From Clostridiales bacterium (GTDB lineage Bacteria > Bacillota > Clostridia > Christensenellales > Aristaeellaceae), in NCBI GenBank assembly GCA_012521895.1, contig JAAYLK010000079.1, forward strand, positions 1-43,050: a stretch of DNA of 43,050 bases. Direction: 5' to 3'. Positions 6,301-35,841 of this stretch are shown here, piece by piece; the first letter of the stretch is position 1; every line of letters starts with the position of its first letter. Under the pieces are notes generated by a model. That model saw only the letters and a list, made by a program, of their open reading frames with translations. It ran no database searches and had not been told where the DNA came from. The translations under genes were made by a program, and so were the position numbers.

Positions 6301-6336
6301 GCGGGGTACAGTTTTTACAACCACCACATCTTGTGG
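6289..6336 (+). promoter_or_regulatory. Tandem NrdR-like boxes
   Basis: Two 16-bp near-palindromes resemble the NrdR consensus acaCwAtATaTwGtgt. Box 1 (6289-6304) reads CCCCTATATACTGCGG and box 2 (6321-6336) reads CCACCACATCTTGTGG. Their starts are 32 bp apart, about three helical turns, which is the spacing expected for NrdR pairs. Box 1 covers the promoter -10, so binding should block transcription. The repressor gene itself is not in the window. Confidence 0.72.
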
Positions 6337-6356
6337 GACGGGAAGGAATAGAGGAC

Positions 6357-8915
6357 ATGAGCACGCTTTTTACACTCCCTGCCGCCATCATCAAGCGCTC
6401 CGGCGCGACAGAGGGCTATGACGCGCGAAAAATCCGCCGCGCCATCAGCAAGGCTTTTGACGCCACCCAGGAAACAATTGCCGATGAGCGGCTGGATCAG
6501 ATTGTACACAATGTGGAAGAAATGATGGCCGCCCTGGTTACAAAGGGCGAGGACTTCACCGTGGAGCGCGTGCAGGACATGGCCGAAATGGCCCTGATGC
6601 AATCGGGCTTCTTCCCCCAGGCCAAGGCCTACATCCTATACCGCGATGTGCGGCGCAAAAAGCGCGAGGACAAGCAAAAGCTGCTGGCCTACTTCCCGGA
6701 TTTTGAGGAGCTGGCCCCCGTGCTGTCGGGCATCGAGCGCGACTTTGCCCAGGAGGAATACGGCCTGGGCGTGCTGACGCGCAAGTTCCAGTCCCTGTAC
6801 AAAGAGGACAAGGCCCTGCAGGAGCGCATGGACGTACTGACCCGCGCCGCCATCGAGCTGACGGACAAGGAAGCCGCGCGCTGGGAGTTCATTGCCGGGC
6901 GCTTGTTCAACACCAGCTACCGCTTTAACCTCCGCCAGCGCGAGCAGGCGCTGAACCTGAACAGCTACTATGAGAAGCTGGTCTACCTGGACAGCCAGGG
7001 CTTGCTGGCGGACATGATGCTGAAGAACTACACGCAGGAAGAGATTGAGCAGGCCGCCGCCTTCATGGACTTTAAGCGGGATGATCTGCTGCCCTACTCC
7101 GGCATCGAGCTGGTCACCAAGCGTTACGTCATCAGCAACCGCCGCCATGAGGCGCTGGAATCGGTGCAGGAGATGTACCTGGGCATCGCCCTGTTTCTGG
7201 CCATCCCCGAGAAAAAGGAAGAGCGCCTCACCTGGGTCAAGCGTTTTTACGACATGCTAAGCCAGCTCAAGGTGACCATGGCCACCCCCACCCTGTCAAA
7301 CGCCCGCAAGCCCTACCACCAGCTGTCCAGCTGCTTTATTGACACGGTGCCCGACGACCTGCAGGGCATCTACCACAGCATCTCCAACTTCGCCAATGTC
7401 AGTAAGTACGGCGGCGGCATGGGGCTGTACTTTGGCAAGGTGCGCTCCGCCGGCGCCACCATCCGCGGCTTTGAAGGCGCGGCGGGCGGCGTCATCCGCT
7501 GGATCCGCCTGGCCAACGACACCGCGGTGGCGGTGGACCAGCTGGGCGTGCGCCAGGGCGCGGTCGCCGTGTACCTGGATGTCTGGCACCGCGACCTGCC
7601 GGAGTTTTTGCAGCTGCGCACCAACAACGGCGATGACCGCATGAAGGCGCACGACGTCTTCCCCGCGGTATGCATGCCCGACTACTTCTATGAGCAGTTA
7701 AAAGACAACATGAACGGGGACTGGTACCTGTTTGACCCCCATGAGATTAAGACCCGCAAGGGCTGGTCGCTGGAGGACAGCTTTGGTACGGAGTGGAAAG
7801 ACAAGTACCTGGAGCTGGTGAACGACCCCGCCGTCACCCGCCGCGCCATTCCGCTCAAGGACCTGGTGCGCCTCATCATCAAATCCGCGGTGGAGACGGG
7901 CACACCCTTTGTGTTCAACCGCGACCACGTCAACCGCATGAACCCCAACCCGCACAAGGGCATGATTTACTGCTCCAACCTGTGCACCGAAATCGCCCAG
8001 AACATGTCGGGCGTTGACCTGGTGGACCAGCGCGTGGAAACGGTGGACGGGGAGACGGTGGTGGTCACCGTCACCAAGCCCGGGGACTACGTGGTGTGCA
8101 ACCTGGCCAGCCTCAACCTGGGCAAGATTGACGTGGACGACCAGGTGGAGCTGTCCGGCCTCATCACCTCCTCCGTGCGGGCGCTTGACAACGTAATTGA
8201 GCTGAACTACTACCCCGTGCCCTACGCCCAGATCAACAACCGCCGCTACCGCCCCATCGGCCTGGGCGTGGCCGGCTACCACCACCTGCTGGCCCTGCGC
8301 GGCATCCCCTGGGAGAGCGAGGAGCATTTGCTGCTGGCCGACCGTGTGTTTGAGGACATCAACTACCACACCATCAAGGCCAGCCTGGAGGTTGCCCGGC
8401 AGAAGGGCGCCTATGAATACTTCCCCGGCTCCGACTGGGAGACCGGCGCCTATTTTGACAAGCGCGATTACACCAGCGAGCGCTGGCAGAAGCTGAAGAA
8501 GGATGTGGCCAAAGACGGCCTGCGCAACGGCTACCTGCTGGCCGTGGCGCCCACCTCCTCCATCTCCATCATCGCCGGCACCACCGCGGGCATCGACCCC
8601 ATCATGGACCGCTTCTACTACGACGAGAAGAAGTCCGGCCTCATCCCCCGCGCGGCGCCCGATTTGAACATGCACACCTACTGGTTTTACAAGTCCGCCC
8701 ACACCATCGACCAGCGCTGGTCGGTGCGCGCCAACGGCATCCGCCAGCGCCACATCGACCAGGCCCAGTCCATGAACCTGTACATCACCAACGACTACAG
8801 CTTCCGCCAGGTGCTGGAGCTGTACCAGCTGGCCTGGCAGGAGGGCGTGAAGACGGTGTACTACATCCGCTCCAAGGCTTTGGAAGTGGACGAGTGCGAG
8901 AGCTGCTCGACCTAA
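6357..8915 (+). CDS. nrdA: Class I ribonucleoside-diphosphate reductase, alpha (catalytic) subunit
   Basis: The enzyme reduces ribonucleotides to deoxyribonucleotides. Counting from the ATG at 6357 (GGAAGG about 10 bases upstream; a GTG at 6333 lies inside an NrdR-like box), the protein is 852 aa. Residues about 1-95 form an ATP-cone allosteric domain (IKRSGATEGYDARKIRRAI). The catalytic barrel holds the redox cysteine in LSSCF (near 326), the NLCTE triad (Asn 541, Cys 543, Glu 545), the PTSSIS phosphate-binding segment, and the Tyr-Tyr radical-transfer pair in VYYIRSK. The C-terminal tail ends in ECESC, the shuttle cysteine pair. The Tyr pair and this tail favour class I over the B12-dependent class II. 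No beta (NrdB) gene is adjacent, so the radical-generating partner must be encoded elsewhere. Confidence 0.92.
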   Translation: MSTLFTLPAAIIKRSGATEGYDARKIRRAISKAFDATQETIADERLDQIVHNVEEMMAALVTKGEDFTVERVQDMAEMALMQSGFFPQAKAYILYRDVRRKKREDKQKLLAYFPDFEELAPVLSGIERDFAQEEYGLGVLTRKFQSLYKEDKALQERMDVLTRAAIELTDKEAARWEFIAGRLFNTSYRFNLRQREQALNLNSYYEKLVYLDSQGLLADMMLKNYTQEEIEQAAAFMDFKRDDLLPYSGIELVTKRYVISNRRHEALESVQEMYLGIALFLAIPEKKEERLTWVKRFYDMLSQLKVTMATPTLSNARKPYHQLSSCFIDTVPDDLQGIYHSISNFANVSKYGGGMGLYFGKVRSAGATIRGFEGAAGGVIRWIRLANDTAVAVDQLGVRQGAVAVYLDVWHRDLPEFLQLRTNNGDDRMKAHDVFPAVCMPDYFYEQLKDNMNGDWYLFDPHEIKTRKGWSLEDSFGTEWKDKYLELVNDPAVTRRAIPLKDLVRLIIKSAVETGTPFVFNRDHVNRMNPNPHKGMIYCSNLCTEIAQNMSGVDLVDQRVETVDGETVVVTVTKPGDYVVCNLASLNLGKIDVDDQVELSGLITSSVRALDNVIELNYYPVPYAQINNRRYRPIGLGVAGYHHLLALRGIPWESEEHLLLADRVFEDINYHTIKASLEVARQKGAYEYFPGSDWETGAYFDKRDYTSERWQKLKKDVAKDGLRNGYLLAVAPTSSISIIAGTTAGIDPIMDRFYYDEKKSGLIPRAAPDLNMHTYWFYKSAHTIDQRWSVRANGIRQRHIDQAQSMNLYITNDYSFRQVLELYQLAWQEGVKTVYYIRSKALEVDECESCST

Positions 8916-8921
8916 CAGTTG

Positions 8922-9016
8922 CAAAGAAGTGTCTGCGGACACTTCTTTGTTTTGGAGGAACCGGAATTTCTACCTGTTCGGCTTCGCTATGCTCGCCTCA
9001 CGGCCGGTAGAAATTC
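8922..9016 (+). repeat. Double-hairpin dispersed repeat, copy A
   Basis: It begins 6 bases after the nrdA stop. Hairpin 1 has 12-bp arms (8922-8933 and 8938-8949) with loop TGCG and is followed by TTTT. Then comes a TTGGAGGAAC linker. Hairpin 2 has 11-bp arms GAATTTCTACC (8964-8974) and GGTAGAAATTC (9006-9016) around a 31-base loop. A second copy lies at 35524-35608. Each of the two stems differs between the copies at one base pair, and both changes are compensatory. Confidence 0.85.
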
Positions 9017-9101
9017 GCGGAATGGATTATTACTTTAAGTGCCCTCAATTCACAATGGTCGTATGCCCTCTCTTGCGTTCGGACATTCTCCCTTGTTCAT
9101 T

Positions 9102-9166
9102 GGGACTTCATGCCACCTTTTTCGCCCACAGGGCGCGGTGGCATGAAGTCCCCCATTTTTTGTGTG
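9102..9166 (+). terminator. Long hairpin terminator before queT
   Basis: A perfect 16-bp stem (9102-9117 with 9137-9152) encloses a second stem CGCCC/GGGCG (9123-9127, 9131-9135) and is followed by T6 at 9156-9161. It could end the nrdA transcript. It might also act as an attenuator for queT, but no alternative pairing or preQ1 aptamer was found. Confidence 0.7.
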
Positions 9167-20249: not shown

Positions 20250-20286
20250 AAAAAATAAAAAGCCGCCGTGTTCAAGACACGACAGC
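20250..20286 (-). terminator. Riboswitch-controlled intrinsic terminator
   Basis: On the minus strand GCTGTCGTGT (20277-20286) pairs with ACACGGCGGC (20262-20271) over 10 bp including two G-U pairs. A TTTTTATTTTTT tract (20250-20261) follows, ending four bases before the maoC ribosome site. The 5' arm contains the P1 3' strand of the lysine aptamer. Confidence 0.85.
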
Positions 20287-20440
20287 GCTCCATCAAGTGG
20301 CAGTCCGGTGGGTGTACCCCAAGGGCCCTGGCAACGGCGGCGGGGAAGCCCTCCGTTCCATCGGCGATGCAGCCCTTCACCCGTCCCCTTGGGTCCCCAC
20401 CCTTCGCATGGACGGCCTACCACGGCACCGCTCCTCTGCA
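20281..20440 (-). promoter_or_regulatory. Lysine riboswitch (L-box) before the lysine fermentation operon
   Basis: The minus-strand leader carries the conserved blocks of a lysine aptamer in order. They are AGAGGAGCG at the 5' side of P1/P2, GGTAGGCC paired back to GGGTGAA (loop E region), TCGCCGA before P3, TTGCCAGGGC after P3, and TGGAGCGCTGTC closing P1. P2 is CCGTCC/GGACGG. Its tip hairpin GGG-TGGGGA-CCC shows a loop whose GGGGA complements TCCCC in the P3 loop, matching the known L2-L3 kissing contact. P1 pairs GCAG (20436-20439) with CTGT (20282-20285). The 160-nt size fits the family. Because that CTGT is also part of the terminator 5' arm, lysine binding should prevent termination (an ON switch). 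Confidence 0.88.
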
Positions 20441-20454
20441 TTTCTTCTTTGTGG

Positions 20455-33698: not shown

Positions 33699-34475
33699 TT
33701 ATTTGATGTAGCCGGCGACGGGGGTGTTGTCAAAGATGCCCAGGTCATGGGGAGAGTCCGCGAAGCCCTCGGTCAGGTCGGTGCCGGCCAGGTGGCCAAA
33801 GTGCTCGCCCTGCACCCAGGACTGGGATTGGCTGACGTCATAGATGACGCCGTCCACCGCCACATAGGCGGGCTTGCCGTCCGTGCCGTCAAATTCCGCC
33901 AGCTCTTCCACCGTCAGCTTGACCACCAGGCGGCCCACTTCCACCACGTTTTCCAGTTTCACGACGCCGTGGGGGGAGATTTCCTTGATTTCTTTGGTCA
34001 GGTCCCGTCCGGCCTCAAAGCCGTTGTGCTGGCCGTTGCCCCAGGCGCGGCTGGCCGTCATGTCATAAATCACGCCGTCAACCGCCACATAGGCTTTCTG
34101 GCCGTCCTTGCCATTGAAGGCCGCCAGCTCCTCCAGGCTCAGCTCAATCAGCAGGCGGCCCACTGCCGGCACGCGGTCCAGCATGGCGACGCCATGGGGG
34201 GAATCCTTCTTGATTTCCTCCGTCAGGTCACGCCCGGCCTCAAAGCCGTTGTGCTGGCCGTTGCCCCAGGCGGGGGACGCCGTCAGGTCATAGATCACGC
34301 CGTCCACCGCCACATAGGCCTTGCGGCCCTCCTGGCCGTCAAACCGCGCCAGTTCATGGGCGGTCAGCAGCACTTCCTCCTGGCTTTCCGTCTGCGCGAA
34401 GGCGGCGATATTGGAAAGCGCCAGCAGGGCGACCATTGTGAATACAGTTAGGTTTCTAAAAAACTTCATCGACAT
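33699..34475 (-). CDS. Secreted protein of three tandem cytochrome b5-like heme-binding domains
   Basis: A 258-aa exported protein: signal peptide (about 1-28, AFA-QTES), then three near-identical repeats (about 36-108, 111-183, 186-258). Each contains an E-L-A-x-F-(D/N)-G start, KAYVAVDGVIYD, a GQHNGFEAG-type histidine loop and a later SPHG or SPHD histidine. These pairs (His 75/94, 150/169, 225/243) match the two axial ligands of cytochrome b5-type domains. The third repeat has diverged (SQSWVQGEHFGHLAG). It probably binds three hemes outside the cell. ATG at 34475 follows AAAGGAG. It is first in an operon with the 4-TM protein. Extracellular electron transfer is inferred, not shown. Confidence 0.82.
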   Translation of the reverse strand: MSMKFFRNLTVFTMVALLALSNIAAFAQTESQEEVLLTAHELARFDGQEGRKAYVAVDGVIYDLTASPAWGNGQHNGFEAGRDLTEEIKKDSPHGVAMLDRVPAVGRLLIELSLEELAAFNGKDGQKAYVAVDGVIYDMTASRAWGNGQHNGFEAGRDLTKEIKEISPHGVVKLENVVEVGRLVVKLTVEELAEFDGTDGKPAYVAVDGVIYDVSQSQSWVQGEHFGHLAGTDLTEGFADSPHDLGIFDNTPVAGYIK

Positions 34476-35328: not shown

Positions 35329-35514
35329 ATGAAAGCACATGTGGATCAAGACGGATGCATCGGCTGCGGCCTGTGCGCGGACACCTGCCCCGAAGTGTTC
35401 CAGATGAATGATGACGGCCTGGCGGAAGTCCATGGCGACATCACCCCGGACAACCAGGCGGCCGCTGAGGAAGCGCGCGACTCCTGCCCGGTGAGCGTTA
35501 TTACAATCGAGTAA
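35329..35514 (+). CDS. Monocluster [4Fe-4S] ferredoxin (Thermotoga type)
   Basis: A 61-aa low-potential electron carrier. The cluster ligands are in CIGCGLCADTCPEVF plus the C-terminal Cys 53 (SCPVSVITIE). The single-cluster layout and the F-x-M-N-D-D-G segment match the Thermotoga-like ferredoxins. ATG at 35329 follows AAGGAGG. It is the last gene of its unit; the double-hairpin repeat starts 10 bases after its stop. Confidence 0.93.
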   Translation: MKAHVDQDGCIGCGLCADTCPEVFQMNDDGLAEVHGDITPDNQAAAEEARDSCPVSVITIE

Positions 35515-35523
35515 ACTTCGTTT

Positions 35524-35608
35524 CGAAGAAGTGTCTGCGGACACTTCTTCGTTTTGGAGGAACGGGAATTTCTGCCTGTTCGCATTCGCTCACGGCCGGC
35601 AGAAATTC
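35524..35608 (+). repeat. Double-hairpin dispersed repeat, copy B
   Basis: Same order as copy A. Hairpin 1 has 12-bp arms (35524-35535 and 35540-35551) with loop TGCG. A GTTTTGGAGGAAC-type linker follows. Hairpin 2 has arms GAATTTCTGCC (35566-35576) and GGCAGAAATTC (35598-35608) around a 21-base loop. Against copy A, base pair 35525/35550 is G-C instead of A-T, and 35574/35600 is G-C instead of A-T. Both keep pairing. Confidence 0.85.
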
Positions 35609-35631
35609 GCGGTACATTTGGGCTAAAGCCC

Positions 35632-35779
35632 AAATCCAAACCACCGCACTTGGGCAGAGCTCACCGCCGCCAGTGGCGGGTGAAGGTGAGCGGCAGCCCA
35701 ATGAGCAAAGGAAGGTGCAAGCGCCGTCCACGGCGTGAAGGCAACTGACTATTGCGAATTGAGACGCTGGTTTGGATTT
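35632..35779 (+). ncRNA. Candidate structured RNA closed by a 12-bp long-range stem
   Basis: AAATCCAAACCA (35632-35643) pairs perfectly with TGGTTTGGATTT (35768-35779). Inside is a nested stem system: TTGGGC/GCCCAA (35650-35655, 35696-35701), GCTCACC/GGTGAGC (35659-35665, 35685-35691) and CCGCC/GGCGG (35667-35671, 3575-35679 region of the same arm). A separate hairpin CGCCG/CGGCG (35722-35726, 35731-35735) follows. A hairpin ATTTGGGCT/AGCCCAAAT precedes it (35616-35635), and a terminator follows (35822-35841). No coding frame fits. The family is unknown; it could also be part of a small mobile repeat. Confidence 0.5.
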
Positions 35780-35821
35780 CCATCAGAGGGCTTCGCCCTC
35801 CGATACCTCCCAGGATCTAGC

Positions 35822-35841
35822 ACCGCCTCCGGGCGGTTTTT
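35822..35841 (+). terminator. Intrinsic terminator before serC
   Basis: ACCGCC and GGCGGT form a stem with loop TCCG, followed by TTTTT. A GAGGGC/GCCCTC hairpin (35786-35800) precedes it. The remaining 35842-35992 is the serC leader with a TATGAT -10-like box and no riboswitch or T-box that I can recognise. Confidence 0.85.

Follow-up and report, generated by a model that had tools for sequence, protein, structure and literature searches.

Dispersed hairpin elements of Aristaeellaceae are probably miniature transposons with IS1182-type ends that duplicate terminator stem-loops

Two copies of a hairpin element in the window

The window, that is, the whole 43,050-nt stretch of DNA analysed here (contig JAAYLK010000079.1 of a Clostridiales bacterium of the family Aristaeellaceae), contains two copies of a structured element. 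Copy A lies downstream of an open reading frame that we take to be nrdA, judging from its C-terminus rather than from a domain scan, and copy B follows a presumed ferredoxin gene, named after its CxxCxxC pattern (Table 1). As the original prediction had described, both copies contain two stems and a GGAGG linker and start shortly after a plus-strand stop codon, the measured gaps being 6 (A) and 9 (B) bases; each stem carries one A-T to G-C exchange that keeps the pairing, and the loop of hairpin 2 differs in length between the copies. The linker common to A and B was found nowhere else in the window, and in none of 100 shuffles. The prediction did not contain the continuation of the element past hairpin 2, its inverted-repeat ends, or the duplicated terminators that flank its relatives.

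Copy A lacks hairpins 4 and 5 and the right end, and carries an extra module different from that of copy B. The last hairpin of this module is followed by six T (9156-9161), and the two together probably form a terminator; a simple terminator scan did not flag the hairpin. Hairpin 1 was flagged as an intrinsic terminator in neither copy and is followed by only four T, and no target duplication was recognisable at A or B. Rfam gave no match at the gathering score at either copy in the window, and in five of the loci only weak matches far below that score were located at the element. Elsewhere in the window, a lysine riboswitch occupies 20275-20446 on the minus strand (58.1 bits), and a 225-base repeat in two adjacent copies, 79% alike, spans 33837-34286, probably within a gene.

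Table 1 Features at the two copies of the element in the window
Feature	Position	Strand	Basis and remarks
Probable nrdA (ribonucleotide reductase large chain)	6333..8915	+	ORF; upstream neighbour of copy A; stop TAA 8913-8915
Copy A, element core (hairpin 1, linker and hairpin 2)	8917..9022	+	Covariance model R1, 99 bits, E 5.4e-22
Copy A, hairpin 1	8922..8949	+	12 bp, C(TGCG)G loop; read as transposon left-end hairpin, overlapping the terminal repeat
Copy A, linker with GGAGG	8950..8963	+	
Copy A, hairpin 2	8964..9016	+	11 bp plus 3, loop 31
Copy A, last hairpin of inner module	9102..9152	+	16 bp outer stem; -39.6 kcal/mol, z -6.64
Probable ferredoxin gene	35329..35514	+	ORF; upstream neighbour of copy B
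Copy B, entire element including the module inserted into hairpin 4	35519..35819	+	R1, 113 bits, E 1.4e-25; 301-nt fold, z -6.64; end approximate
Copy B, hairpin 1	35524..35551	+	
Copy B, hairpin 2	35566..35608	+	Loop 21
Copy B, hairpin 3	35616..35635	+	Covariation in relatives
Copy B, hairpin 4	35636..35775	+	Arms 35636-35642 and 35769-35775, inserted module between; arms covary in relatives
Copy B, hairpin 5	35783..35803	+	
Copy B, decayed right end (CCTCCCAGGATCTA)	35806..35819	+	Compared with intact right ends elsewhere
Host terminator adjoining the right end of copy B	35822..35837	+	Terminator scan

Architecture and distribution of the element

The original prediction expected further genomic copies with preserved stems, and such copies exist. 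In the 2.26 Mb genome, a pattern search followed by a covariance model built from 21 copies (R1) detected the core 25 times with E values of 4.5e-9 or lower, and the stems of these copies are kept rather than broken at random. A full copy consists of a left end, hairpin 1, the linker TTTTGGARGAAC, hairpins 2 to 5, the conserved motif CTCCC and a right end resembling ATATAGTTTTTTGACAGTCTG, so that an element has up to five hairpins and imperfect terminal inverted repeats. The minimal form, L127, consists of hairpin 1 and the right end only, and extra modules are sometimes inserted, as in hairpin 4 of copy B and, with another module, in copy A. The element is short, has many copies and contains no transposase gene, as is characteristic of a MITE; intact copies, taken from other genera, measure 212-237 bp, and the terminal ends of the copies in the own genome are decayed. 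A pairing of GGAGG with the 3' CCTCC, present in the fold of copy B, had no covariation support and was rejected, because copies with a GGAAG linker still have CCTCC or CTCCC.

Among 40 genomes searched with R1 at E<=0.001, 12 matched; this number includes the own genome, and six genomes of the genus each had at least 14 matches. Some genomes of the genus presumably come from anaerobic digesters, judging by the isolate names. No match was obtained in 16 genomes from other families of the same order. When 300 family genomes were searched at E<=1e-5, the model matched 29, which represent 9 of 50 genera. The C-terminal part of nrdA is present in nine of ten genus relatives (74-86% identity); no empty site for copy A was found at nrdA among them, the downstream DNA being unalignable by eye, and no close strain provided an empty site for any copy.

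Covariation of the hairpins

In the 21-copy alignment, 97.8% of the cells pair and both sides have changed in 12 of 26 pairs, values reached by 0 of 500 shuffles; in a sliding control the pairing drops to 37-49%. A set of 44 full-length copies, scored over 42 pairs of hairpins 1, 2, 3 and 5, gave 223 double-changed cells compared with 79.7 in shuffles (0 of 500). Because two subtypes differ, the drawn form of hairpin 3 pairs in just 59% of the cells of this set. Within the subtypes, hairpins 3 and 4 are supported by 22 cells versus 4.7 in shuffles and, in a second test, by 25 versus 7.3, where two of the five measures do not exceed the shuffles.

The covariation is thus real, but it does not single out the plus strand, and selection on RNA structure, which the original prediction had considered possible, does not follow from it. 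In hairpins 1, 2 and 5 read on the plus strand, with one G-T-rich pair left out, there are 21 G-T cells and 42 A-C cells. Since the opposite strand would have G-U in place of an A-C cell, these counts do not favour plus-strand RNA; selection on that RNA predicts the reverse ratio, and template switching would also give paired changes, so we do not claim RNA selection.

Target duplications flanking the miniature elements

The two flanks of each copy were compared, using mismatched flank pairs as the control and their 99th percentile as the threshold. The set was assembled from 114 model matches, 72 of which had a recognised right end; 14 rows were removed by hand (antisense or second matches, a wrong or missing end, another genus, partial copies), rows short of flank were dropped, and L016, L004 and L014 were restored with a newly found end. 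In 16 of the resulting 60 copies the flanks were more alike than the threshold, where 0.6 were expected, and 0 of 10,000 permutations reached this. This test replaces an earlier one on 38 copies with eight clear cases. The majority of the significant flanking repeats can be folded into a terminator hairpin. No duplication is present at most copies, A and B among them, and in L111 and L015 the duplication contains only one hairpin arm.

Duplications flush with the element, 20-37 bp long, were found in other genera at 14 of 40 regions, hand-chosen from the R1 matches in the 300 family genomes. Among the 26 rows without a flush duplication, 17 were re-examined: four have no right flank at a contig end (L229, L236, L237 and L243), and several have decayed hairpin repeats as judged by eye (L244, L245 and L247). 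In L240 (G264), the hairpins at the two ends of the element differ. The terminal repeat of a sister family in G001, CAGACTGTCGAAAAAGG, is near-perfect, and in L164 it directly adjoins a repeat of about 24 bp. One sister element (L172, G001:C119) lies inside the hairpin AAGTGTCCGCGGACACTT, which resembles hairpin 1; an element may here have served as the target. In a single case, L118 (G004:C9:53879), the left flanking hairpin matches the right one better when inverted, by eye (loop GCAACAG versus CTGTTGC).

The element is inserted both ways relative to genes. A rough gene call, wrong in at least L009, L017 and L090 as judged by stop codons, placed a same-strand gene upstream in 26 of 39 rows and convergent genes around 16 of 39.

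The position of the duplication edges was analysed at 19 sites, comprising the 14 duplicated miniature copies of other genera and five insertion sequences (see below). The empty site was rebuilt and folded, and windows were slid by up to 15 bases. The mean folding energy was -18.0 kcal/mol at the duplication, against -2.8 and -4.0 at the ends of the range, and the minimum coincided with the duplication within 0.5 kcal at 18 of the 19 sites. At most three end bases are unpaired in 17 of 19 sites, over duplication lengths of 20-37, and a T run lies just outside the duplication in most of them. According to these fold edges, both joining points lie at the foot of the stem, one per strand, which in turn indicates that the target's own hairpin sets the length of the duplication.

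IS1182-family insertion sequences with the same ends

Complete IS1182-family insertion sequences in relatives have the same ends as the element (CAGNCTGTC..AAA). The terminal repeats of the miniature form are CAGTGTGTCGAAAAAG and CAGCCTGTCAAAAAAG, compared with CAGCCTGTCAAAA in L211 and CAGTCTGTCGAAAAAG in L276. By eye, the inner hairpins bear no likeness to the insertion sequence. In L182 (G006), a terminator hairpin is followed immediately by the shared end CAGACTGTAGACAAAGT, with an IS1182 reading frame about 150 bp further on, and two further left ends in G006 resemble it; the other loci of this first IS1182 search (L180-L199) had no such ends. The transposase of L201 scored 409.9 bits with NF033551 (cut-off 270) and also matched PF13751, PF05598 and PF01609. 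One complete transposase, used as a query against 200 family genomes, yielded 16 loci. Both ends could be set in five of these, and all five have identical, flush duplications of a whole stem-loop (AAACTGCCCAAGGGCAGTAA, AAACCACCCGTCAAACGGGTGGTTT, AGCCTTGCATTTTTGCAAGGCT, AGGCGCTTCCCATGCGGAAGCGCCT and CCGAATCTTCAGCTTGTTAGCTGAGGATTCGT). An insertion sequence in G192 (L212) has different hairpins at its two ends; this mismatch, like that of L240, could reflect recombination between copies or an assembly join.

Beyond the family, a copy on a Rhizobium plasmid is flanked by ACGGCCCGGGAAGCCCGGGCCGT on either side, again a whole stem-loop duplication, and the hairpins bordering a Peribacillus copy differ between its ends. 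At class level, whole stem-loop duplications occur at 6 of 30 loci. Four others have GARRSCACTGAAAAA ends and ordinary 7-9 bp duplications with no hairpin, which shows that the method does not force hairpins; one CAG-type end has 4 bp (L294), one case of 13 bp is doubtful (L278), and 18 were uncalled. In the transposase tree, the hairpin duplicators and the rows whose ends merely abut hairpins form one group of 24 rows (support 88/97), with the short duplicators outside it. L221 also fell outside because the wrong reading frame had been taken, and this row was disregarded.

At the left ends of IS1182 elements, the target hairpin ends within three bases of the element in 19 of 19 cases, and a hairpin starting within the terminal repeat, like hairpin 1, is present in 18 of 19. 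This shared inner hairpin identifies hairpin 1 as a transposon end hairpin; it may serve to block transcription entering from outside, or to assist the transposase. An insertion sequence (L211) and a small element (L226) whose ends are similar occur together in G200. Searches of the own genome gave no IS1182 transposase, and an attempt to locate an autonomous partner there by end pattern was discarded, with five matches versus eight for the reversed-pattern control.

Proposed mechanism and alternatives

We propose, with a probability of about 0.9, that the element is a MITE moved in trans by an IS1182-family DDE transposase, joined at the feet of a terminator stem and duplicating the terminator, and that copies A and B are old copies of it. 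The latter have no duplication of their own, A lacks the right end and that of B is decayed, and therefore both were interpreted through their relatives. What appears directly from the sequence is the sharing of ends, the left-end hairpin, and the identity of the duplication with the stem-loop in young copies and complete insertion sequences. The partner transposase would join the element ends at the two feet of the terminator stem-loop, one on each strand, the target probably being extruded as a cruciform at joining, and after repair the element would be flanked by two complete copies of the terminator. Since the terminator would be retained on both flanks, insertion would be near-neutral, and it seems to do little harm to the host. 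Landing in gene ends and copying the terminator offers a simple reason for tolerance.

The reading of the element as a cis-acting RNA of 3' untranslated regions (a stabiliser, attenuator or terminator under RNA selection) would agree with the covariation in hairpins 1 to 5, the C(UNCG)G type of the hairpin 1 loop, the stop codon before both window copies and the predominance of same-strand upstream genes in the rough call. It is nevertheless improbable, given the terminal repeats and target duplications, the insertion in both orientations, the lack of a G-T excess on the plus strand and a hairpin 1 that did not score as a terminator. As to the terminator role suggested originally, hairpin 1 does not qualify in A or B, but the element does adjoin true terminators. 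A different explanation concerns the covariation only and is compatible with the MITE reading, namely that the paired changes arose by mutation. A known mutation process, template switching within an imperfect palindrome, corrects one arm from the other, and it would fit with every hairpin keeping its pairing without strand preference. However, the copies of several species retain five distinct hairpins and the conserved single-stranded motifs that separate them, and the core occurs in nine genera, which suggests some constraint; this account of the covariation is possible, though we lean against it.

The original prediction also offered a REP-like repeat, and an element of the REP/BIME type moved by a RAYT (Y1) transposase would likewise be short, dispersed, palindromic and intergenic. 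This origin is very improbable, because both the ends and the target duplications belong to an IS1182-family DDE transposon and because PF01797 gave no match in the own genome. It is hardly credible, too, that each flanking repeat is the terminator of its own convergent gene and that the two resemble one another by chance. Convergent genes do surround 16 of 39 copies in the rough call, but the excess of like flank pairs over mismatched ones and the identity of all five family IS1182 duplications on both sides contradict such a coincidence.

Relation to known systems

The MITE reading has its closest counterparts in IS1272 and TnSha1 of Staphylococcus, which belong to the same transposase family, target stem-loops including transcription terminators, and insert in both orientations (PMC5678879, PMC4923244). 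According to the sections of these papers considered here, they delete part or all of the stem-loop without a target duplication, and duplication of a whole stem-loop appears only as a hypothetical pathway (3b-6b in Fig 13 of PMC5678879). In the present elements the stem-loop is not replaced in this manner but duplicated as a whole. The MITEs of ISMac2 (IS1182) in Methanosarcina acetivorans, 160 and 169 bp long, are also small elements of an IS1182-family insertion sequence; their direct repeats differ from those found here, at 4 and 0 bp (the column order of the table being uncertain), and a terminator target is not mentioned in the sections of PMC3852290 considered. BOX, RUP and SPRITE of Streptococcus pneumoniae resemble the element as small, dispersed, modular stem-loop repeats, SPRITE being terminator-like (PMC3049150, PMC10969869); unlike it, they have no IS1182 ends, and terminator duplication is not described in the parts of PMC10969869 considered. 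REP/BIME sequences with RAYT (PMC2817692) are similar as extragenic palindromes and differ in their transposase class, Y1, which was not found in the own genome. In the portions of the open-access literature covered, no report of whole stem-loop target duplications was found.

For the element described here, the consequence is that the target stem-loop sets the duplication length, and the pathway of the IS1272 paper becomes readable from sequence and testable. The analysis also carries a warning, in that hairpins with covariation downstream of a stop codon can prove to be transposon ends rather than regulatory RNAs. Normally, it is the enzyme that determines how long the target duplication of a DDE transposon is, and this length hardly varies. 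A broader picture, for which we see the balance as even, is that this clade of IS1182 transposases would read the shape of the target and not its sequence, with the host hairpin measuring out the duplication (20-37 bp) and the host gaining a second working terminator. The small riders would have become chains of hairpins, perhaps partly captured terminators, with structure kept for transposition or insulation.

Nested and interrupted elements

An inner TACAGTCAG or TTTCAGTCTG, like the outer right end, stands directly before hairpin 5 in L246-L249 of G176 and in most full copies, as if hairpin 5 were the captured target of an older, shorter element. Around contig positions 570-710, L090 has a single right end preceded by three tandem copies of the left part, which comprises hairpin 1, the linker and hairpins 3 and 4. 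L161 was at one stage taken for a long element and proved to be a right end interrupted by another repeat. This second small repeat (TAATACTGATTCCAATCTTTATTGCATCG...), apparently a second family of miniature elements, breaks the right part of the element in both L065 and L161 (G004). Finally, in L002 (G000:C15), at a contig end, the apparent start of an IS5-type transposase, named by eye, directly follows the element.
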